The notes beneath the pieces are model-generated. The model ran no database searches and was not told where the DNA came from. It saw only the letters and a list, made by a program, of their open reading frames with translations. The position numbers were made by a program, and so were the translations under genes. A stretch of 11,922 nt of DNA. Origin: Desulfobacterales bacterium. Its GTDB lineage: Bacteria > Desulfobacterota > Desulfobacteria > Desulfobacterales > Desulfobacteraceae. This document shows positions 1 through 10,763 of the stretch, one piece after another. Positions within the stretch are counted from its first letter, which is position 1. Each line of letters starts with the position of its first letter. The stretch is from positions 1 to 11,922 of the forward strand of contig JAKSBM010000316.1 of assembly GCA_022361135.1 (NCBI GenBank), written 5' to 3'.

Positions 1-830
1 CGCATGAGGGGAATGGTAAAGGTCCCCGTGGTGACCACGTTGGCAATGGAAGAACCGGAAACCAGACCGGTCATGCCCGAGGAGACCACGGCGGCCTTGG
101 CCGGCCCACCCCGCAAGTGGCCGAGGGCGGCAAAGGCCGTGCGGATGAAATAATTCCCCGCCCCAGCCGATTCCAAAAGGGAACCGAAGAGGACAAACAT
201 GAAAACCATACCCGTGGAGACCCCCAGGGCCACCCCGTAAACCCCTTCCGTGGACAGCCAGTAATGGGACATGCCTTTGACCAGACTGGCCCCTTTATGG
301 GCAATGACTTCGGGCATGTGGGGTCCGGCAAAGGTATACCCCAGAAAAACCAGGGCCACGATCATCAAGGGGGGCCCCAAGGCCCGGCGGGTGGCCTCCA
401 GTAAGAGGACCAGGCCGGTGACGGAAACCATAAGATCCATGGGAGTCGGATATCCGGGCCGGTCGGACAATTCCGTATAATAGAGAAAAAGATAGGCGGC
501 ACAAAAGGCCGCCACCAGCGCCGTGACCCAATCCTGGAGGGGGATATAATCCCTGGGAGATGATTTAAATGTGGGATAGGCGGTGTAGGCCAGGAAAATG
601 GCAAAGGCCAGATGGATGGAGCGGGCTTCGGTGTCATTCAAGACAAAGATATTGAAAATAAAGGGCAGCGGGGACGCATACCAAAGTTGGAACAGGGTCC
701 AGGCCAGGGGGATATAAAATAAAAGTTTTTTGGATATCCAGCCCTTGGGGGTCCGTGCCCCGGTATCGGTCTCAGCCACCATGTCCTGCAGGTCGTCCGC
801 AGGACGGGGGTCAAGGGAAGCAACACTCAT
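1..830 (-). CDS. TRAP transporter fused permease (4TM-12TM type), N-terminal part
   Basis: The reading frame opens at ATG 830 and stays open to the left edge, giving 276 visible residues. An AAGGAG Shine-Dalgarno lies 7 nt upstream of the start. After a charged, probably cytoplasmic N-terminus of about 35 residues there are hydrophobic segments near residues 36-52, 71-88, 100-118, 131-147, 153-169 and 197-219. The stretch from about residue 216 (GSLLESAGAGNYF, then GHLRGGPAKAAVVSSG and SGSSIANVVTTGTF) is the conserved start of the large DctM-like domain in fused TRAP permeases. These proteins take up organic or amino acids using an ion gradient and a periplasmic binding protein. The small (DctQ-like) and large subunits are joined in one chain, as is usual for TAXI-type systems. 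The binding protein gene lies directly upstream in the same orientation, which supports the call. The rest of the DctM domain is outside the window; nothing suggests the gene is broken. Confidence 0.93.
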   Translation of the reverse strand, partial: MSVASLDPRPADDLQDMVAETDTGARTPKGWISKKLLFYIPLAWTLFQLWYASPLPFIFNIFVLNDTEARSIHLAFAIFLAYTAYPTFKSSPRDYIPLQDWVTALVAAFCAAYLFLYYTELSDRPGYPTPMDLMVSVTGLVLLLEATRRALGPPLMIVALVFLGYTFAGPHMPEVIAHKGASLVKGMSHYWLSTEGVYGVALGVSTGMVFMFVLFGSLLESAGAGNYFIRTAFAALGHLRGGPAKAAVVSSGMTGLVSGSSIANVVTTGTFTIPLM

Positions 831-982: not shown

Positions 983-1960
983 TTACATCAGGCCGGCTTC
1001 TTTGTAGTATTTCACAGCACCTGCATGCAAGGGAGCAGAAAGCCCGTCCTTGATCATTTCTTCCTTTTTCAGGTTGGCAAAGGCGGGATGGAGTTTTTTG
1101 AAATCTGCAAAATTATCAAATACCGCTTTAACCACCTGGTAGATAACCTTTTCAGCAACCCGGCTGGAGGTGACAAAGGTCGCCCCCACACCAAAGGTAT
1201 CGGTGGCGCCTGTGGTGCCCCGGTACATGCCCGCCGGGATGGTGGCGGTTCTGTAATAATCATATTTGTTCACCAGCTGATCAATCACCGGGCCGTTCAC
1301 GGTGACCATGACGGAATCGCAGGAGGTGGTGGCCTCTTTAATGGAGCCCGAGGGATGTCCGACCGTATAGATGATGGCGTCGATTTTATTGTCACACAAT
1401 GCCTTGGACTGTTCGGCGGGCTTCAGCTCTGAAGCCAGCTTAAAATCGGCCTTGGACCATCCCATGGCGGCCATGACCACTTCCATGGTGCCCCGTTGGC
1501 CGGAACCGGGATTGCCGATATTCACCCGTTTTCCCTTGAGGTCCATGAAATTGCGGATGCCGGAATCCACCCGGGCCACAACGGTGAAGGGTTCGGGATG
1601 AACACTGAAAATGGCCCGTAATTCCTTGTTGGGACCCTGTTTTTCGAATTTAGAGGTACCGTGGTAGGCATGGTACTGCCAATCGGACTGGGCCACACCC
1701 ATGTCCAATTCGCCGGCACGGATGGTGTTCAAGTTATAAACCGATCCCCCGGTGGATTCCACGGAGCAACGAATACCATGAACTTTTCTGCCCTTGTTGA
1801 CCAGGCGGGCGATGGCACCGCCCGTGGGATAGTAAACACCGGTCACCCCGCCGGTTCCGATGGTGACAAAGGTCTGATCTGCGGCTTGAACTGAGCTGGA
1901 ACCCAGAAAAAGGACACATGCGAACATCGCTGCAACACAAAATACCAATGCTTTCTTCAT
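983..1960 (-). CDS. TAXI family TRAP transporter solute-binding protein
   Basis: This 325-residue protein begins with a clear Sec signal peptide: MKK, a hydrophobic core to about residue 20, and a likely cleavage after VQA at residue 26. The mature part starts with the TAXI-family pattern [20 protein letters not shown] (residues 31-50), followed by the STGGSVYNL segment and the hydrophobic [12 protein letters not shown] segment typical of the family. Further on are [18 protein letters not shown] and the C-terminal [14 protein letters not shown] helix found at the end of many members. It should bind a ligand in the periplasm and deliver it to the fused permease encoded next (830 to beyond position 1). 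Characterised TAXI proteins have been found with glutamate or glutamine bound, but the ligand here cannot be assigned by eye. The ATG at 1960 is supported by a strong Shine-Dalgarno (1966-1972). No lipobox is seen, so a soluble periplasmic protein is expected. Length is normal for the family. Confidence 0.95.
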
Positions 1961-2702: not shown

Positions 2703-4115
2703 GTGACATCCATATATTTTTCCAATTATCAAGTGGAAGAAGATACCGATTATTTTTTATATATCGGCGAATTAAAAAACTACGGTTTAAATCATTTTCT
2801 CAAGGATGCCCTCTCCAAATTCTACCATCGTAAATTCAAATTCATCGCCATTGTTCCGGACATAGCCGAGCAATACAATTACGACAACGTCATTGTCATC
2901 AACCCCCTGGTCAATGACTACAAATGTCGCTACGGCAGCCATGTCAATTGTCGCGTTTCCGCGGCGGAATTCATGGCAACGGTCTCCAAAACCCGGGAAA
3001 TACAATGCCTCATCGAACAGATCCTGAGGCGACAGGACCATCTCTTTCTCTATATGTACGAAAGCCTTGAGGAGATGACCCTGGACGAAATCCCCGGTGT
3101 TTCCATTTTGGGGCCGGACAAAACCATTGCCCGGGAAGTGAACAACAAGGTGGTCCAGCTCACCCAGCTCAAGGAAATCGTCCCCCTGGTGGAGCATGAA
3201 ATCCTCCGGGGAGGTAAAGCCCTTTTGGAAACCACCGCAGGACTCTGGAATCAATGGGACCAGGGAATCTTTGTCACCCGTCCCTTTTCCGCTGCCGGAA
3301 TCAACAGCGTCGTGGCCCAATCCAACGGGGAGATCCAGACCAAATTCGACCTGGGAGGGGAGGATGCTGAACCGGAGACGGAATTCATCATCTCCAGGTA
3401 TATGCCCCACGACCTGGATCCCACGGTGCTGGCCGTGGTGGCCGGAGAGGACGACATATACATTGCCGGCATTGCAGACCAACGAATTTCCCATGGAAAC
3501 CGCTTCACCGGCTCCACCTTTCCCTCTGCAGCCAATGCCGAACAACGGCAGCTGTTAAGGGAACACACCCGGGCCGTGGGCAAGTGGCTGGCCCAGCAGG
3601 GATATCGGGGAATTTTCGGCTGTGATTACATCATCACCCACGACGGGGAGATCTATTTTTTGGAAATCAATGCCAGAAAACAGGGAACCACCCTGGAATT
3701 CTGCTGTACCCTGGAGCAGGGCCTCCCCCACCAGGCACCCAATCTGCCCGAATTGGAATTCTTTGCCGTCACCCAGGAAATTTTTCCCGCCAATACCTGT
3801 GAACTGGACCATGGAAGCATCCCCCTTCACTGGGGAACCTATAATTATAAAATCGAGGATCCGGTGAAGACCAGTACCTATATTCCCCAGGCTTCCGGGG
3901 AAAGGGAAGCCTTTGCCCGGGTCTCCAAACGGAATCTGAAAAAAGATTTTCTGATCCTGGAACACACCGGTTCGGACTTTGTCATTGCCCAGGGGGCATT
4001 CATCGGACGCATCGTTGCCCTGGGACAGGATCTGGAAAGCGTTACCCAGGGAATTTCCCAGGGATGCAAGACCATAGAATTGACCTTTAGCCAAAGCCAG
4101 AACGAAAGCAATTAA
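2703..4115 (+). CDS. ATP-grasp domain ligase, unknown substrate
   Basis: This 470-residue protein starts at GTG 2703. The frame is open upstream only to 2658 and contains no ATG or TTG there, and a weak GGGA lies 8 nt before the start. The first 130 residues look like a preATP-grasp alpha/beta domain. The ATP-grasp fold follows: GPDK...NNKVVQLTQLKE (about residues 138-158), a VTRPFSAAGINSVV nucleotide-loop region near residues 190-204, and EFIISRYM near 228-235. The metal-binding end has D308 in GIFGCDYII and E321, N323 and R325 in FLEINARKQG. These are the usual Mg-ATP residues of carboxylate-amine or carboxylate-thiol ligases, so the enzyme is probably active. The last 100 residues match nothing I recognise. 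It is the first gene of a three-gene operon, with 29 nt to the aminomutase gene. By context it may join the aminomutase product to another amino acid or amine. The substrate is unknown. Confidence 0.88.
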   Translation: MTSIYFSNYQVEEDTDYFLYIGELKNYGLNHFLKDALSKFYHRKFKFIAIVPDIAEQYNYDNVIVINPLVNDYKCRYGSHVNCRVSAAEFMATVSKTREIQCLIEQILRRQDHLFLYMYESLEEMTLDEIPGVSILGPDKTIAREVNNKVVQLTQLKEIVPLVEHEILRGGKALLETTAGLWNQWDQGIFVTRPFSAAGINSVVAQSNGEIQTKFDLGGEDAEPETEFIISRYMPHDLDPTVLAVVAGEDDIYIAGIADQRISHGNRFTGSTFPSAANAEQRQLLREHTRAVGKWLAQQGYRGIFGCDYIITHDGEIYFLEINARKQGTTLEFCCTLEQGLPHQAPNLPELEFFAVTQEIFPANTCELDHGSIPLHWGTYNYKIEDPVKTSTYIPQASGEREAFARVSKRNLKKDFLILEHTGSDFVIAQGAFIGRIVALGQDLESVTQGISQGCKTIELTFSQSQNESN

Positions 4116-4144
4116 TCCGTTTTATTTACACAGGGGACATCACC

Positions 4145-5722
4145 ATGGATAGAAAAATGGAGGACGCCCGGCTGGACAGCTTTACCAGGGAATTTTTCGA
4201 TTGGCTCTTCAACGCCGGAAACCCGACGCCTCCCCCGGAACTTCAATCCGGAATCAAGGAAAAACTTCAAAGGGCCCGGGAGGCAGGCAATGATTCAAAA
4301 ACCGGCCGGACCCGACCCATCATCGCCCTATTCGGTGCCTTGAAAGCCGCTGCCGACCAGGGCATATCCCCCGGGGCCCTGGGGCTGGACCGTGACCAGT
4401 TGGCCGACCTGGCCTTGAAACATGAAGACATTGACGAACACCAGGTGAGTATCGGGGGACGGGTGTTCAAGGCCCAGGCCATTGTGGACCAGGCCATTTC
4501 ACGGGTGGATGATTACCTGGACGTAAAGGATGAAATCGCCCCCAGCGGATTCCAGCTCTGGGATAAAATCCAGGCCGCCCAGGAACGGATCAAATCCCAG
4601 CTGAAAATGGATGATCAAAGCTGGAACACCTATTCCGGCCAGATCCGCAACTGCATTGACACCGTGGACCAATTGGCCGATATCATCGACCTCTCCCCGG
4701 AGGTGATCCGGGAGGTCACCCGGGTGACCCAGAATTACCGCATGCGCCTGACCCCATACTATGCCAGCCTCATCCAGGTGGGCAGCCCCAACGATCCGGT
4801 TCTGCTCCAATCCGTGCCCACCGGAGAAATGGTGGACAATGTGGGCGAAGAGATCCCACCCGTGGCCGCAGACCATTCCCCGGCCCGGCTCATTGACCAG
4901 TTCTACCCCCGCACCGTCACCATCAAGGCCACCAATATGTGCGCCATGTATTGCACCCATTGCCTGCGCATTGCCCACATCGGCAAAAAAGATCAGATCT
5001 ATTCCGATACTGCATATGGAGAAGCCCTGGAATACATCCGGGCCAATCCCCGGATCCGGGACGTACTCGTCACCGGTGGGGACGCCTTTGTCCTGCCCAA
5101 TAAGATCCTTAAAAAGATTCTCACCGCCCTGGATGACATCGACCATGTGAAGATGAAACGACTGGGCACACGGATTCCGGTGACCGCCCCCCAGAGAATT
5201 GATCAGGAATTGCTGGACATTCTGGCCCAAAGCAACGATAAAAAGCCTGTACGGGTGGTAACACAGATAAACACAGCCCAGGAAATGACCCCCACCAGCG
5301 GAAATGCCTTTAAGCAGATTTCGGCCCATGTATCTGCCGTGCTCAACCAGGCGGTACTTCTCAAGGGGATCAACGACTCCCGGGTGAAAATGTGGAAGCT
5401 GTGCGAAACCATCCAGGAGAACTATGTGCGGCCCTATTACATCTTCAATTGTTCCTACCGGAACCCCCAATTCACCCATTTCCGGGTGCCCGTGGAAAAG
5501 GGACGGGACATTGTGGAATCCATGTACGGCAATATATCCGGTGATGCCATTCCCCGGTACATTGCCACGGCCGGCGGAAAAATACCCCTCCACCGCAGCA
5601 ATGTGGACCGGGGCGGTAAAGAGATTACCCTGGTAAAACCCTGGAGCGGTGAACGGGTCCAGTATCCCGATGCCGATCCTGCAACCTATGAAAGCACGGA
5701 ATTTGCGTTTACAAAAAAGTAA
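4145..5722 (+). CDS. KamA-family radical SAM/PLP aminomutase with N-terminal extension
   Basis: The 525-residue protein starts at ATG 4145 with an AGGGGA Shine-Dalgarno about 8 nt before it. The first ~150 residues are an extension I do not recognise. From about residue 165 it follows lysine 2,3-aminomutase: RNCIDTVDQL, then MRLTPYYASLI with SPNDPVLLQSVPT, then the radical SAM CX3CX2C cluster at C266, C270 and C273. R275 corresponds to the Arg that holds the substrate carboxylate. DVLVTGGDAF, GTRIPVTAPQRI, NQAVLLKGIND and THFRVPVEKG follow, and K479 in AGGKIP is the expected PLP lysine. It should therefore shift an alpha-amino group to the beta carbon using SAM, a 4Fe-4S cluster and PLP. The two Asp residues that bind the lysine side chain (D293 and D330 in the clostridial enzyme) are replaced by S437 and T475, and the loop before the PLP lysine is three residues shorter. 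The substrate is thus probably not lysine. It overlaps the M20 gene by 35 nt. Confidence 0.9.
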   Translation: MDRKMEDARLDSFTREFFDWLFNAGNPTPPPELQSGIKEKLQRAREAGNDSKTGRTRPIIALFGALKAAADQGISPGALGLDRDQLADLALKHEDIDEHQVSIGGRVFKAQAIVDQAISRVDDYLDVKDEIAPSGFQLWDKIQAAQERIKSQLKMDDQSWNTYSGQIRNCIDTVDQLADIIDLSPEVIREVTRVTQNYRMRLTPYYASLIQVGSPNDPVLLQSVPTGEMVDNVGEEIPPVAADHSPARLIDQFYPRTVTIKATNMCAMYCTHCLRIAHIGKKDQIYSDTAYGEALEYIRANPRIRDVLVTGGDAFVLPNKILKKILTALDDIDHVKMKRLGTRIPVTAPQRIDQELLDILAQSNDKKPVRVVTQINTAQEMTPTSGNAFKQISAHVSAVLNQAVLLKGINDSRVKMWKLCETIQENYVRPYYIFNCSYRNPQFTHFRVPVEKGRDIVESMYGNISGDAIPRYIATAGGKIPLHRSNVDRGGKEITLVKPWSGERVQYPDADPATYESTEFAFTKK

Positions 5723-6863
5723 AAAAGAAGCCCTGACCGGCTATTTCACCGACCAGAGGGACGGCCTGTACATCCTGCTCAAAAACCTGGTTGAAATCCA
5801 GAGCGGCTCCCGGAACAAGGCCGGTGTGGATGCCGTGGGACACGCCATTGCCCGGGAAATGGAATCCTTCGGCTTTGAATGCAGCCGCCTTAGCCAAACC
5901 GAGGTGGGCGACCACATCATAGCCCGGAGCATGCCCCATGAACCCGGCGCCCCCCATCTGCTCATCACCGGCCACATGGACACGGTCTTCCCCGAGGACA
6001 CCCACTTCCGCAAATATGTGGAAACCCCGGAGTATTGCAAGGGACCGGGTGTGGCCGACATGAAGGGGGGGCTTGTGGTGGGAATGTTTGCCCTCAAGGC
6101 CCTCAAGGCACTGGATCTCATGCCGGAACTGCCCATCACCTTTTTCTTCAACTCCGACGAGGAAATCGGCTCCCCCACCTCCAGGGAAGCCATTGCCGGA
6201 GAAGCCGAAAGCGCCGTGGCCGGATTTGTCCTGGAGGCCGGCGGCCTGGACGGAGAAGTGGTCAGCGGCCGCAAGGGAAACCTGGCCGTCCGGCTCAATG
6301 TGGAGGGCAATGCCGGCCATGCCGCCTTTGCCGGCCCGGACAAGGCCAGTGCGGTATTGGAACTGGCCCACAAAACCCTGGCCATTGAGGCCCTAAACCA
6401 CCCGGAAAGGGGAATCACCGCCAATGTGGGGACCTTCAACGGCGGCATCGGGCGAAATGTCATTGCCCAGCATGCCTGCGCCGATGTGGATTTCAGATTC
6501 CTGAAACCCGAGGACGAAGCCCAAGTTAAATCCGATCTGGACCGCATTGTAAATGAAAACAGGGTTCCGGGCACCTGCACCACCATCCACCCCTTATCGG
6601 GACGGCCCCCCATGCCCCAGACCCTGGCCAACCACGACCTGTACAGAAGAACCGCGGCCGTGGCCAAGGAGTTGGGAATCGCTGTCAAGGAAGAGCTCCG
6701 CCAGGGGGTCTCCGATGCCAATATCATCGCCGGCACCGGATTGCCCGTGGTGGACGGCCTGGGTCCCTGCGGTGCCAAGGACCACAGCGAAGACGAGTAC
6801 ATCCTCAAGGAAAGTCTTTGGGAGCGCACCCTGCTCTTTGCTGCATTGCTTTCTGAATTTTAA
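5688..6863 (+). CDS. M20 family zinc peptidase/amidohydrolase (carboxypeptidase G2-like)
   Basis: From ATG 5688 the protein is 391 residues long, normal for the family. The N-terminus then begins just ahead of the conserved YFTDQRDGLYILLKNLVEI segment. An in-frame ATG at 5649 would only lengthen the overlap with the aminomutase gene, and TTG 5703 is a third option. No start has a strong ribosome binding site, so translation is probably coupled to the upstream gene. The di-zinc site appears complete: H96 and D98 in GHMDT, bridging D124 in VADMKGG, general base E158 and ligand E159 in SDEEIGS, E183 in VLEAG, and H366 in AKDHS. H211 in GNAGHAAF lies in the dimerisation lid domain. It should hydrolyse an amide or peptide bond, most like glutamate carboxypeptidase or ArgE/DapE-type enzymes. 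There is no signal peptide, so it acts in the cytoplasm. In this operon it may recycle or process the ligase product. The transcript ends at the hairpin at 6894-6931. Confidence 0.9.
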   Translation: MKARNLRLQKSKKEALTGYFTDQRDGLYILLKNLVEIQSGSRNKAGVDAVGHAIAREMESFGFECSRLSQTEVGDHIIARSMPHEPGAPHLLITGHMDTVFPEDTHFRKYVETPEYCKGPGVADMKGGLVVGMFALKALKALDLMPELPITFFFNSDEEIGSPTSREAIAGEAESAVAGFVLEAGGLDGEVVSGRKGNLAVRLNVEGNAGHAAFAGPDKASAVLELAHKTLAIEALNHPERGITANVGTFNGGIGRNVIAQHACADVDFRFLKPEDEAQVKSDLDRIVNENRVPGTCTTIHPLSGRPPMPQTLANHDLYRRTAAVAKELGIAVKEELRQGVSDANIIAGTGLPVVDGLGPCGAKDHSEDEYILKESLWERTLLFAALLSEF

Positions 6864-6893: not shown

Positions 6894-6931
6894 AAAAAAG
6901 GCCCTGCCGTTACTTGGCAGGGCCTTTTTTT
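6894..6931. terminator. Bidirectional Rho-independent terminator
   Basis: A perfect 9-bp GC-rich stem (6900-6908 with 6916-6924) and a 7-nt loop are flanked by six A on the left and seven T on the right. The hairpin is therefore followed by a U tract whichever strand is read. It lies 31 nt after the M20 stop codon and 32 nt after the lepA stop codon, so it can end both convergent transcripts. Confidence 0.92.
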
Positions 6932-6962: not shown

Positions 6963-8765
6963 CTAGTCGGACTTCAAAACCGAGAGGAAGGCGGACTGGG
7001 GAATTTCCACAGATCCCACCATCTTCATGCGTTTTTTGCCCTTTTTCTGCTTTTCCAGGAGTTTCCGCTTACGGGAGATGTCCCCGCCGTAGCACTTGGC
7101 CGTAACGTCCTTACGGTAGGCGGAAATGGTTTCCCGGGCGATGATTTTGCCGCCGATGGCCCCCTGGATGGGAATTTTAAACTGCTGTCTGGGGATTTCC
7201 TCCCGCAGTTTCTTACAGGCGGCACGGGCCCTGGCTTCGGCCTTTTCCCTGTGGATGAGCTGGGACAGGGCATCCACCCGTTCTCCATTGATGAGGAAGT
7301 CCAGTTTCACCAGGTCGGTTTCCTGGTATCCGGCAATTTCGTAATCAAAGGAGCCGTATCCCTGGGTCACGGATTTGAGTCGGTCGTAGAATTCATAGAC
7401 CACCTCGGCCAGGGGGAGTTCAAACTTCATCTCCATGCGGTTGGAGGTCAGGTATTGATAATTCTTGCTCACCCCGCGGAATTCGTGGCAGACCTGCATG
7501 ACGTTGCCCATGTATTTATCGGGCACAATGATGGAGGCGTTGATGAAGGGTTCCCGGATCCGGGTGATTTCCGTGGGATCGGGGTATTCCACCGGGTTGT
7601 CAATGATCTTGACTTCACCGTCGGCATGGGTGATTTCGTACTGAACCGAAGGCGAGGTCAGGATGAGGGAGATATTGTATTCCCGTTCCAGACGCTCCTG
7701 GACCACCTCCAGGTGGAGCAAACCCAAAAATCCGCAGCGATAGCCAAAACCCAGGGCCACAGAACTGTCCTTTTCGTAAATCAGGGAGGCATCGTTGAGT
7801 TTGAGTTTTTCCAGGGCATCGGACAACTCTTCGTAATCGTCGGAGGCCACGGGATACATGGAGGAGAAAACAACGGGCGTGGGATCCCGGAATCCGCCCA
7901 GGGCTTCTTCGCAACGGTTATCGGACATGGTCACGGTATCGCCGATTTTTACGTCAGAAATATTTTTAATCCCGGCAATGAAATAGCCCACCTGGCCTGC
8001 GGTGAGTTCCTTCTGGGGTTTACGTTCGATCTGGAACAGCCCCACCTCTTCCACCTTGTACTGGGCATCATTGGACATGAACTGGATCTTGTCACCCTTT
8101 TTAACGGTGCCTTCGAAAATCCGGAAATGGACAATGGTCCCCCGGAAGGCATCGTAATGGGAATCGAAGATCAGGGCTTTGAATCCACCGGTTCCGGTAA
8201 CTTCGGGCGGGGGAACCTGTTCCACGATGGCCGGGAAGATGGGCTCCACATTGGTGCCGGCCTTGGCCGATACGGTGAGGGCATTTTCGCCGTCCAGTCC
8301 CAGGTCGTCTTCAATCTGTCCCTTGACCCAGTCAATTTCCGCCGAGGGCAGGTCAATTTTATTGATGACGGGGATGATCTCCAGATCATGCTCCATGGCC
8401 AGGTACATATTGGCCAGGGTCTGGGCTTCCACCCCCTGGGTGGCATCCACGATGATCAGGGCACCTTCACACGAAGCCAGGGCCCGGGACACTTCATAGG
8501 AGAAATCCACATGGCCCGGTGTATCAATCAGGTTTAACAGATACTCGTTGCCGTCCGGGGCCGTATAGGGAAGGGTCACGGTCTGGGATTTAATGGTAAT
8601 TCCCCGTTCCCGTTCAATGTCCATCGAATCCAGGATCTGGTCCTTCATGTCCCGGTCGGAGATAATATCCGCCAATTGGATCAACCGGTCCGACAGGGTG
8701 GATTTCCCATGATCAATATGGGCAATGATACTGAAATTTCGAATCTTTTGGTGATCTGACTTCAA
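6963..8765 (-). CDS. lepA: Elongation factor 4 (LepA), ribosome back-translocase GTPase
   Basis: The 600-residue protein has the full EF4 pattern and standard length. The GTPase domain carries G1 AHIDHGKST (15-23), switch region ERERGITIK (51-59), G3 DTPGH (81-85) and G4 NKID (135-138). Domains II, III and V-like segments follow, with the EF4-specific C-terminal domain at about residues 490-600, including [38 protein letters not shown] and [21 protein letters not shown]4 binds stalled or mistranslocated ribosomes, helps translation under ionic stress and contributes to ribosome assembly. The start is TTG at 8765, chosen because GGAG (8771-8774) lies 5 nt before it and the N-terminus then aligns with other EF4 proteins; no in-frame ATG fits. 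It is transcribed alone, away from the REC-GGDEF gene, from a candidate promoter at 8820-8848. It is often paired with lepB, which is not seen here. Confidence 0.98.
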
Positions 8766-8890: not shown

Positions 8891-9787
8891 ATGAATTACG
8901 CTATTTTGATAGTGGACGACGACCGTGCCATCACGGACTCTGTCAGAGAGTACCTGAGTATTTTGTCCTACGAGGTCCGAAGCGCTATCAACGCCGAAGA
9001 AGCATTGGAAACATTGAAAACATTCCCTGCACAGGTGGTTCTCACCGATATCATGATGGAGGGAATGGACGGCCTTGAGCTGACCCGGGCCATCAAAAAA
9101 CAATACGATATCGACGTCATGGTCATGACGGGATACAGCGCAGACTATTCCTACGAAGAAGCCATCCACGCCGGAGCCAGCGATTTTATCTTTAAACCCT
9201 TTCGCTTTGAAGAGCTTGACCTTCGCGTGAAACGGGTGCTGCGTGAATCGGAATTCAAAAAAGAACGGGATAAACTGGTCCAGGAGCTTGAAAAACTGGC
9301 CATGACCGACGCCCTGACCAGCCTCCACAATTCCCGCTATTTCTACCAGCAGATCAAGGCGGAAATCCAGCGACACAAACGGTATGAACGGGCCCTTTCC
9401 CTGATCATCCTGGACATTGACTTTTTCAAGGTTTACAACGACAGCTGGGGCCATCTGGAGGGGGACAAGGTCCTCATGAAGATCGGCGAAATCATCACCG
9501 GCTGCATGCGGGCCATGGATTCGGCCTATCGTTACGGGGGCGAAGAATTCGCCATCATCCTGCCGGAAACCGGCATTGAAAAGGCCCGGGTGGTGGGCAA
9601 CCGCATCCGGGAACGCATTGCCGCAGAAGTCTTCCATCCCCAAAGGGGGAAATCCGAATCCGTTACCGTTTCCATGGGGGCGGGCCAATGGGATCCGGAG
9701 GAGGATTTCACCTCATTTATCCGGCGCACCGATGAAGCCCTTTACGTCTCCAAGGAGAACGGTCGAAACCGGCTCTCCACTCCCTGA
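8891..9787 (+). CDS. Response regulator diguanylate cyclase (REC-GGDEF)
   Basis: The 298-residue protein has a receiver domain (about residues 3-118) and a GGDEF domain (about 135-296) joined by a short charged helix. The receiver has the acidic pocket D9-D11, the phosphoacceptor D53 in LTDIMM, T80 and K102 in FKPF. The cyclase domain has MTDALTSLHNSRYF, D175/D177 in ILDIDFFK and an intact GGEEF at 216-220, so it should make cyclic di-GMP from two GTP. The RxxD product-inhibition site (R207 to D210) stands five residues before GGEEF, so feedback control is expected. Phosphorylation probably drives dimerisation, as in PleD/WspR-type proteins, though this one has a single receiver domain. No partner histidine kinase gene is seen, so it is an orphan regulator. 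GGAG 8 nt before the ATG supports the start. The gene is single, with its own promoter candidate and terminator, and diverges from lepA. What its c-di-GMP controls cannot be told. Confidence 0.95.
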   Translation: MNYAILIVDDDRAITDSVREYLSILSYEVRSAINAEEALETLKTFPAQVVLTDIMMEGMDGLELTRAIKKQYDIDVMVMTGYSADYSYEEAIHAGASDFIFKPFRFEELDLRVKRVLRESEFKKERDKLVQELEKLAMTDALTSLHNSRYFYQQIKAEIQRHKRYERALSLIILDIDFFKVYNDSWGHLEGDKVLMKIGEIITGCMRAMDSAYRYGGEEFAIILPETGIEKARVVGNRIRERIAAEVFHPQRGKSESVTVSMGAGQWDPEEDFTSFIRRTDEALYVSKENGRNRLSTP

Positions 9788-9805
9788 TCCTTCCCCAAAA
9801 AAACA

Positions 9806-9845
9806 AAAAGGCCCGGGATGCAATATTCTGCATCCCGGGCCTTTT
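9806..9845. terminator. Bidirectional Rho-independent terminator
   Basis: A perfect 17-bp inverted repeat (9806-9822 with 9829-9845) with a 6-nt loop ends in four A on the left arm and four T on the right arm. It is 18 nt after the REC-GGDEF stop codon and about 80 nt beyond the nadC stop codon on the other strand. It is suited to end both convergent transcripts. Confidence 0.92.
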
Positions 9846-9923
9846 CTATATTTTCACCCTATCCTTGGAAGGGTACGGAACAATCCTTTGGAACCGACCT
9901 ATTGAACCATCACGCTTGGTCCA

Positions 9924-10763
9924 TCACGCCTGGATCATCATGCTCAGGTCCACGGAGCGGGCCTGGTGGGTCAATGCCCCACATGAAATCACATCCACAC
10001 CGGTTTGGGCGATGGGATTGAGGGTATCCAGGCCGACGTTGCCCGAGGCCTCAATGACCACCCGGTCCTGGGAAATGGCCTGGATTACGGCCACGGCTTC
10101 GGTCATCTGCTCCAGGGACATATTGTCCAGCATGATGACATCGGCCCCGGCATCCAGTGCCTGGTGGACCTCTTCCATGGAAGTGACCTCCACCTCGATC
10201 TTCATGAGATGGGAGGTTCTTTCCCGGACGGCGGCCACGGCATTGGCAATGCCCCCGGCCACGGCAATGTGATTTTCCTTGATGAGAATCCCATCATAAA
10301 GGGAACACCGATGGTTGTATCCCCCGCCGGCACGGACCGCATCCTTTTCCAACCGCCGCCACCCCGGTGTGGTTTTCCGGGTGTCGGTGAGGCGGACATG
10401 GTCATTGTCCAAAGCCTGGACATAGGTCCGGGTCAGGGTGGCAATGCCGGAAAGGCGCTGGAGAAAATTCAAAGCGGTCCGCTCGCCCTTGAGCAGGGCC
10501 AGCAGATCCCCCTGGATGTCCACCAGGGTATCCCCCTTGGCCACGGCATCCCCATCCTTGAAATGGAACGTAATATCCACCTGGGGGTCCAGCAGGCCAA
10601 AAACCTGCCTGGCCACCTGGGAACCGGCCAAAACCAAGTCCTGTTTGGCCTTGATCCAGCCCTTTCCCCTCCGGGAATCGGGCAGGATACTTTCGGTGGT
10701 GATATCGCCCAGCCCGGCATCTTCTGCCAGGGCCAGGCGAATGATCTGTTCCACACCATCCAT
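9924..10763 (-). CDS. nadC: Nicotinate-nucleotide pyrophosphorylase (quinolinate phosphoribosyltransferase, carboxylating)
   Basis: The enzyme converts quinolinate and PRPP to nicotinate mononucleotide, CO2 and pyrophosphate, the last step of de novo pyridine-ring synthesis for NAD. It acts in the cytoplasm, normally as a dimer. The 279-residue length is typical. Visible signatures are EDAGLGDITTE near the N-terminus (14-24), GERTALNFLQRLSGIAT (93-109), TRKTTPG (128-134), GGGYNHR (146-152), IKENH (161-165), EVEV (190-193) and the C-terminal EASGNV plus DVISCGALTH phosphate-binding strands. These supply the quinolinate- and PRPP-binding Arg, Lys, His and Glu residues. The ATG at 10763 lies 2 nt after the valS stop codon, and its Shine-Dalgarno (AAGGAAA) falls inside the end of valS, so the two genes are co-transcribed and probably translationally coupled. 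No nadA or nadB is in the window. Confidence 0.98.
   Translation of the reverse strand: MDGVEQIIRLALAEDAGLGDITTESILPDSRRGKGWIKAKQDLVLAGSQVARQVFGLLDPQVDITFHFKDGDAVAKGDTLVDIQGDLLALLKGERTALNFLQRLSGIATLTRTYVQALDNDHVRLTDTRKTTPGWRRLEKDAVRAGGGYNHRCSLYDGILIKENHIAVAGGIANAVAAVRERTSHLMKIEVEVTSMEEVHQALDAGADVIMLDNMSLEQMTEAVAVIQAISQDRVVIEASGNVGLDTLNPIAQTGVDVISCGALTHQARSVDLSMMIQA

Follow-up and report, generated by a model that had tools for sequence, protein, structure and literature searches.

Organisation of the locus

We analysed a stretch of 11,922 nucleotides (nt) from a Desulfobacterales bacterium (contig JAKSBM010000316.1 of assembly GCA_022361135.1; hereafter the window), in which three tightly spaced plus-strand genes encode an ATP-grasp ligase predicted to form amide bonds (2703..4115; 470 amino acids with a GTG start in the list of open reading frames), a long KamA-type aminomutase of the radical S-adenosylmethionine and pyridoxal phosphate (PLP) class (4145..5722; 525 amino acids in the same list) and an M20 metallo-hydrolase (5688..6863). 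A gap of 29 nt separates ligase and aminomutase, and the hydrolase frame, open at 5649-6863, overlaps the aminomutase gene by 35 nt when its ATG at 5688 is used. The genes are followed by a hairpin with A and T runs (6894..6930; 15-bp stem formed by 6894-6908 and 6916-6930), likely a bidirectional terminator, which was read from the sequence and is not among the results of a rule-based terminator scan. A first-pass annotation of the window had described three closely packed genes with one terminator and with key catalytic residues in all three products; the open reading frames and the hairpin bear out the layout and support a single operon, and the residues were confirmed by motifs and by alignment to known enzymes.

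That annotation had not noticed a recurrent fourth partner, a TAXI-TRAP importer. In the window it is divergent from the cassette, with genes for a solute-binding protein, a predicted glutamate receptor (983..1960, minus strand), and for the N-terminal part of a fused permease that continues beyond the window (3..830, minus strand).

Conservation and spread of the cassette

A scan of GTDB genomes with a ligase alignment returned 99 relatives, of which 80 loci were kept, the nearest to the window being Desulfobacteraceae drafts. Cultured strains are among the carriers, for instance Desulfofustis glycolicus DSM 9705 (L030) and Desulfopila aestuarii DSM 18488 (L020). Linkage was counted where at least 1.6 kilobases (kb) follow the ligase for the aminomutase (n=69) and at least 3.2 kb for the hydrolase (n=59), leaving out 11 of the 80 loci (5 of which show a KamA gene) and 21 of the 80 (8 of which show an M20 gene), respectively. 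The aminomutase adjoins the ligase in 64 of the 69 loci, and a 65th, L072, has both in one reading frame; L014, L016, L032 and L034 lack it. The M20 gene is present in 46/59. Adding the short loci that show the gene in question, the counts become 69/74 and 54/67. Linked ligases reach down to about 36% identity to that of the window, and in L066 the three genes are adjacent in a rearranged order. Since the association is conserved in 64 of the 69 loci long enough to judge, the grouping is not due to chance, and the adjacency is widespread, not confined to this genome and its close relatives, the outcome that would have undone the original proposal. The apparent ligase-aminomutase fusion of L072 was set aside: its junction differs by 4 nt from that of the relative L073, possibly an indel in one draft, and L072 retains a ribosome-site-like stretch and an ATG ahead of the aminomutase.

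The loci without an aminomutase belong to a ligase paralogue clade (L014 9877-11286 and L016 9998-11377, also L015, L017, L032, L034 and L061). Six of these form one starred clade in the ligase tree, with GSIK or GSIR replacing GELK near the N-terminus, and the shortened L061 also carries GSIK. No aminomutase adjoins these paralogues wherever the contig is long enough, and 4/7 (L015, L017, L032 and L061) share assemblies with ordinary cassettes (L008, L005, L010 and L012). A RimK-like ATP-grasp gene lies upstream of the paralogue in six loci, its domain having been tested in L014 (8829-9713).

Co-occurrence was also assessed at the genome level. In a sample of 242 Desulfobacterales genomes centred on a chosen carrier, 12 have the ligase, 13 a long KamA of the window type (>500 bits) and 9 have both, an overlap with a chance probability of about 2e-11 (hypergeometric, uncorrected for kinship). 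The ligase occurs without a long KamA in G009, G010 and G523, and the reverse holds for G342, G291, G496 and G521. A fragment of a long KamA is nevertheless seen in G009, and draft gaps thus explain part of the misses. In surveys of whole phyla, where some candidates per genome were scored and counts are lower bounds, the ligase was found in at least 1/198 genomes of the phylum of G005 (Nitrospiraceae) and at least 1/149 of that of G006 (Brocadiaceae), in both cases the centre itself, and in at least 6/297 of the phylum of G001, centre included. By comparison, the small phylum of G013 (12 genomes, centred on a carrier) has it in 11/12, the twelfth, G888, being a 1.7-Mb draft with neither ligase nor cassette-type KamA. 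Outside the sulfate reducers and this small phylum the cassette is patchy.

A glutamate-type importer

The binding protein of the window belongs to the TAXI family (TIGR02122, 371.1 bits, cut-off 84.35). The permease piece scores 265.1 bits against TIGR02123 (TRAP_fused), covering profile positions 3-238 of 615 where the whole-protein cut-off is 320.65, and DctM (PF06808) is above its cut-off. Of the 28 loci with more than 6.5 kb to the left and more than 9 kb to the right (52/80 being too short), 20 contain the importer, which in L019 is met only at a distance of 9.7 kb. The position of the TAXI gene varies among the 26 loci with a TAXI protein above 200 bits: upstream and divergent in 9, downstream and co-directional in 11, downstream and convergent in 3, and upstream and co-directional in 3.

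The window protein matches the solved structures 8s4j and 9ibo at 452 bits and is about 66% identical to VcGluP; we take 8s4j to be VcGluP because eleven checked residues of the latter, from the part of PMC11574862 drawn on here, fit the printed chain numbering. Across the window and the 26 loci, Y45, Y46, S75, Q93, H123 and E125 (VcGluP numbering) are kept in 27/27 proteins, including the Y45 and Q93 pair by which we defined a glutamate-specific TAXI protein. Y200 is kept in 23/27, among them the window, with Phe in the other 4; M201 is Thr in all 27, and S40 is Gly. The same part of PMC11574862 describes Y45 and Q93 as the contacts whose loss costs most affinity, gives the frequencies in TAXI proteins at large as 78% for Y45, 54% for Q93 and 20% for Y200, and reports that M201 is likewise Thr in TtGluBP, the Thermus glutamate/glutamine protein. 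Considering that the VcGluP contacts are conserved in the cassette proteins, the predicted cargo is likely glutamate or a very close compound.

Two distant homologues (the second copy in L037 and L047; 133 and 112 bits) lack the glutamate contacts and were left out of the residue count, as were L113, L120 and L142 (one protein, no ligase nearby) and L093, which repeats L001. In L120, from G342, a long KamA gene and a TAXI binding protein gene are divergent (7567-8586 and 8905-10461); this TAXI protein keeps most glutamate contacts but has Tyr for H123, Phe for Y200 and Ile for M201.

The aminomutase of the window

The aminomutase is a member of the KamA family (TIGR00238, 240.2 bits, cut-off 199.2) and reaches 29.5 bits against Radical_SAM (PF04055), equal to the cut-off of 29.5. 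With lysine 2,3-aminomutase (TIGR03820) it scores 283.5 bits, below the cut-off of 525.4, the best NCBIfam model being glutamate 2,3-aminomutase (TIGR04368) with 341.2 bits. Alignment to lysine 2,3-aminomutase (2a5h) places the CxxxCxxC motif at C266/C270/C273, the carboxylate Arg at R275 and the PLP lysine at K479. S437 and T475 occupy the sites of D293 and D330, the aspartates that we take to hold the lysine side chain, the former site presumably corresponding to K332 of the Clostridioides glutamate 2,3-aminomutase. The earlier view that this KamA lacks the lysine-binding residues is thereby supported. In the alignment of long KamAs one residue is inserted just past the lysine-binding Asp site, and the nearby R439 is invariant.

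The predicted structure has a mean predicted local distance difference test score (pLDDT) of 72, with values below 50 in 432-481 and in other stretches that include active-site residues, and we refrained from a pocket reading because of this low local confidence. The fold search supports solely a core like that of lysine 2,3-aminomutase, and the N-terminal extension is predicted, with good confidence, to be helical. The window-type enzymes are a separate KamA clade, new to us, with Ser, Thr and Arg, as judged by alignment, at the predicted side-chain pocket. Distant standalone long KamAs in L115 (1480-3087) and L116 (1408-3009) keep S437 and R439 and have lost T475; their contigs are short, and no cassette partner was recognised there.

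A second form of the cassette

In L072-L080 the same genes occur with a shorter KamA that lacks the N-terminal extension. Three second-clade enzymes also have glutamate 2,3-aminomutase as their best NCBIfam model, at 578-614 bits. In this clade the D293 site is occupied by Lys and the D330 site by Thr; the Lys is found in 16 second-clade rows of the tree, three of them repeats. This form prevails in the phylum of G013, where a KamA stands beside the ligase in 9 of the 11 ligase carriers and where the longer contigs show, in one direction, an RpiR regulator, a TAXI protein, a permease, a stress protein, the ligase, the KamA and the M20 hydrolase.

The sister genomes G885 and G886 depart from this order. 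Here the M20 gene directly follows the ligase, tblastn finds no KamA beside the ligase, and the best KamA is on another contig, is of the window's long type and has the NCSYRNPQ motif. Their ligases fall inside the second clade on a starred 100/98 fork, and their aminomutases group with the long enzymes, the split between long and short being marked by a starred branch. Most simply, a long KamA would have taken over from the short one in trans; such a replacement would imply that both types serve the same step and thus suggests that they do the same job.

Several further genes were seen around the cassettes. A gene for a Glu/Gln-class tRNA synthetase is near the cassette in L154 (14483-16180), L156 (3170-4858, minus strand) and L158 (8104-9708), all from the small phylum. 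In one subgroup an Lcl_C-domain protein directly precedes the ligase (L158 2435-2950, L147 2639-3148, L159 4124-4639 and L074 9466-9951; domain tested in L158 only). Genome G894, which has the cassette, also has a second short KamA beside the start of a TRAP permease and an RpiR-type regulator (L165 3067-4371, minus strand). Finally, a second, very different KamA-like gene with Arg at the D293 site is divergently upstream of the cassette in Desulfonatronovibrio and Desulfonatronospira drafts (L042 186-1304, L045 8352-9470 and L055 121-1413, all minus strand).

Ligase and hydrolase

The ligase is an ATP-grasp protein by its match to PF02655 (ATP-grasp_3; 32.8 bits, cut-off 23.2), the only domain found in a Pfam search, and by its predicted fold, and has the motif EINARKQGTT. 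Its score against the BesA model is 26.5 bits where that model requires 750, and its sole sequence match among solved structures is 8yi6 (E 1e-4). In the fold comparison PylC reaches the same Z level as carboxylases, PurK and PurD.

The hydrolase matches PF01546 (96.1 bits, cut-off 24.6) and also PF07687. Its closest solved relative is carboxypeptidase G2 (1cg2, 121 bits), a glutamate carboxypeptidase, with which the His, Asp, Glu-Glu, Glu and His that we take to be the zinc ligands of M20 enzymes are all aligned. Against the PRK06133 / CPG2 glutamate carboxypeptidase subfamily it scores 225.8 bits, below the cut-off of 349.

Neighbouring genes and regulation

Clustering of the genes around the 80 loci returned as recurrent the three cassette genes, the TAXI binding protein, the fused permease and a universal stress protein. 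A GntR-type regulator gene lies beside 14 of the 80 loci (FCD-GntR domains tested in L023 only), and RpiR/SIS regulators adjoin second-clade cassettes (domains tested in L155, L156 and L162). A less stringent riboswitch scan of 1950-2800 in the window gave one match, to a manganese riboswitch on the minus strand at 12.6 bits, where 45 are needed, and this was discarded. In the window, lepA (6963-8765; LepA_C, PF06421) is convergent with the cassette, the terminator likely being common to both, and further downstream a domain search identified a response regulator with a GGDEF domain, i.e. a diguanylate cyclase (8891-9787), with no connection to the cassette seen. The remaining genes include, according to domain searches, a nadC-type gene and one for valyl-tRNA synthetase.

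A proposed beta-glutamate amide pathway

The set combines an importer of the glutamate type with an ATP-grasp ligase, a KamA whose closest model is glutamate 2,3-aminomutase (or a stand-in for that KamA) and an M20 enzyme whose closest solved relative is a glutamate carboxypeptidase. From this combination we propose that imported glutamate may be converted to beta-glutamate and ligated through an amide that the M20 enzyme could cleave, a reading that we place just short of even chances. L-glutamate would enter via the TAXI-TRAP system, for which support is good, and the aminomutase would shift the amino group of glutamate or a derivative from C2 to C3, yielding beta-glutamate (3-aminoglutarate). 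The ATP-grasp enzyme would then activate a carboxylate with ATP and form an amide between beta-glutamate and a partner. An amino acid is the most likely partner, and the resulting beta-amino-acid dipeptide would be ignored by ribosomes and ordinary peptidases; the M20 enzyme would eventually cleave the amide and return the parts. The proposal builds on the observed gene content, linkage, folds, catalytic residues, importer contacts and one switch of KamA clade, from which we infer substrate, partner and direction.

As for its role, the product is most likely an osmotic or reserve solute, yet this is the weakest step of the scheme, and an osmolyte is our guess by analogy with the known use of beta-glutamate and from the many marine or soda-lake hosts. 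The habitats are presumed, in part from genome titles, and the carriers include Desulfobulbus sp. Tol-SR and Desulfoprunum benzoelyticum, which we take not to be marine. Methanogens and a few bacteria use beta-glutamate as a compatible solute, and for sulfate reducers the part of PMC1224877 drawn on here names only trehalose or inorganic salts (PMC1224877). A search of open-licence PubMed Central found no paper that joins these genes or describes a way for bacteria to turn glutamate into a beta-glutamate amide.

Several observations weigh against the beta-glutamate amide. The functions of all cassette members are predictions from sequence, and the aminomutase scores are below the TIGR04368 cut-off of 650 bits both in the window (341.2) and in the second clade (578-614). 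Moreover, the window enzyme has S437 where the second clade carries Lys, and the displacement that links the two types is a single event in two sister draft genomes. As for the partners, the modelled fold does not indicate ligase substrates, the match to PylC being no better than those to carboxylases or PurK, and the hydrolase has Val at the site of K208, which we take to be the glutamate contact of carboxypeptidase G2. Linkage is also incomplete: M20 is absent beside the ligase in 13/59 loci, the importer is absent in 8 of the 28 well-flanked loci, and in G342 the long KamA adjoins a TAXI protein, the genome having yielded no ligase. Finally, catabolism-type regulators are frequent neighbours, and no Rfam family exceeded its threshold in a riboswitch scan of the window and of 18 short loci, out of 142, around ligases or aminomutases.

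Some of these points would suit a protecting-group route, in which glutamate is first linked by the ligase to an amine or acid that serves as carrier, the aminomutase acts on the conjugate and M20 frees the beta-amino acid. Protection by an ATP-grasp enzyme followed by removal is known from butirosin (BtrJ/BtrG) and from LysW-based lysine synthesis, the gene order here equals the order of such steps, and M20 is the third partner in 46/59 loci. S437 and T475 would also suit an amide better than a free carboxylate, the window KamA lacking both the second-clade Lys and the lysine-type Asp pair. We nevertheless consider this route unlikely, as 13 of the 59 loci have no adjoining M20, we know of no such glutamate conjugate, G342 has a long KamA with the ligase not detected, and the second clade, which appears interchangeable with the window type, has a Lys that would suit a free carboxylate.

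A catabolic module, to which we give comparably little credence, would have imported glutamate or a glutamate amide cut by M20 and rearranged for degradation, with a ligase acting as in the breakdown of gamma-glutamylated polyamines. The linkage to an importer, the GntR and RpiR/SIS neighbours, families common in catabolism, and the lack of an osmotic riboswitch above threshold in the window and the 18 loci all agree with it. However, the constant partner of the aminomutase is a ligase that spends ATP, which would be costly in degradation for sulfate reducers, and no recurrent dehydrogenase, transaminase or CoA (coenzyme A)-ligase was recognised by eye in the 40 gene clusters, not all of which are family-annotated.

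Although none of the members has an established substrate, it is very unlikely that the genes travel together and act on unrelated ones: the linkage survives ligase identities of about 36%, the rearrangement in L066, four importer arrangements and two aminomutase clades. Synthesis of N-acetyl-beta-lysine or of the dipeptide N-acetylglutaminylglutamine amide (NAGGN) in another guise is exceedingly improbable, for beyond KamA membership and a superficial ligase-plus-peptidase likeness to NAGGN, the lysine-binding Asp pair is absent and the other window genes scanned have no acetyltransferase or amidotransferase domain.

Returning to the beta-glutamate amide, a wider claim is possible yet distinctly more doubtful, namely that the cassette represents an undescribed bacterial pathway from imported glutamate to a beta-glutamate amide, a beta-dipeptide solute of a new class, and that the KamA with the Ser/Thr/Arg pocket would be a second, interchangeable route to beta-glutamate, spread through sulfate reducers and 11/12 of a small phylum. 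Should the proposed pathway be right, the cassette would offer genes with which to test for an unknown metabolite of many sulfate reducers, the KamA family would gain a new substrate pocket, and the ligase would bring an ATP-grasp specificity that is new and of use for the making of beta-peptides.

Comparison with known systems

Glutamate 2,3-aminomutase (eam; TIGR04368) is the best curated model for the window KamA and for three of the second clade, which shares a Lys at the side-chain site. The window type is set apart by Ser/Thr, the inserted residue, the invariant Arg and the long helical N-terminal extension, and all scores are below the cut-off. In the part of PMC9337991 drawn on here, eam, for beta-glutamate, is among the osmoprotectant genes occasionally found under Na+ riboswitches (PMC9337991), whereas no riboswitch exceeded the threshold in the window and the 18 loci here. 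In contrast to AblA/AblB, which make N-acetyl-beta-lysine, S437 and T475 replace D293 and D330, and the partners are an ATP-grasp ligase and an M20 enzyme, not AblB. VcGluP with its permease is the closest known counterpart of the importer, the main ligand contacts being kept at about 66% identity; the cassette protein differs in having Thr for M201 and Gly for S40, and in its linkage to the aminomutase-ligase-hydrolase set.

NAGGN genes encode an AsnO-like protein, an acetyltransferase-ATP-grasp protein and an M42 peptidase, that is, a ligase and a peptidase for a small osmolyte dipeptide. The parallel to NAGGN drawn in the first-pass annotation does not hold: the window has no asparagine-synthetase-like or acetyltransferase partner, the hydrolase is M20 and not M42, NAGGN contains no beta-amino acid, and the cassette is thus not a member of that system. 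PylB of the pyrrolysine pathway is not a KamA enzyme, PylB-PylC has no M20 partner, and in the comparison with the ligase PylC shares its rank with many other enzymes of the ATP-grasp fold. In the carnosine system an ATP-grasp carnosine synthase makes, and an M20 carnosinase cuts, a beta-amino-acid dipeptide. The likeness considered here is that of the ATP-grasp and M20 families; carnosine is built from beta-alanine and histidine without an aminomutase. Each part of the cassette is from a known family, what is new to us being their combination and the clade of the aminomutase, and the system is best placed with beta-amino-acid metabolism in which the beta-amino acid is made by an aminomutase.

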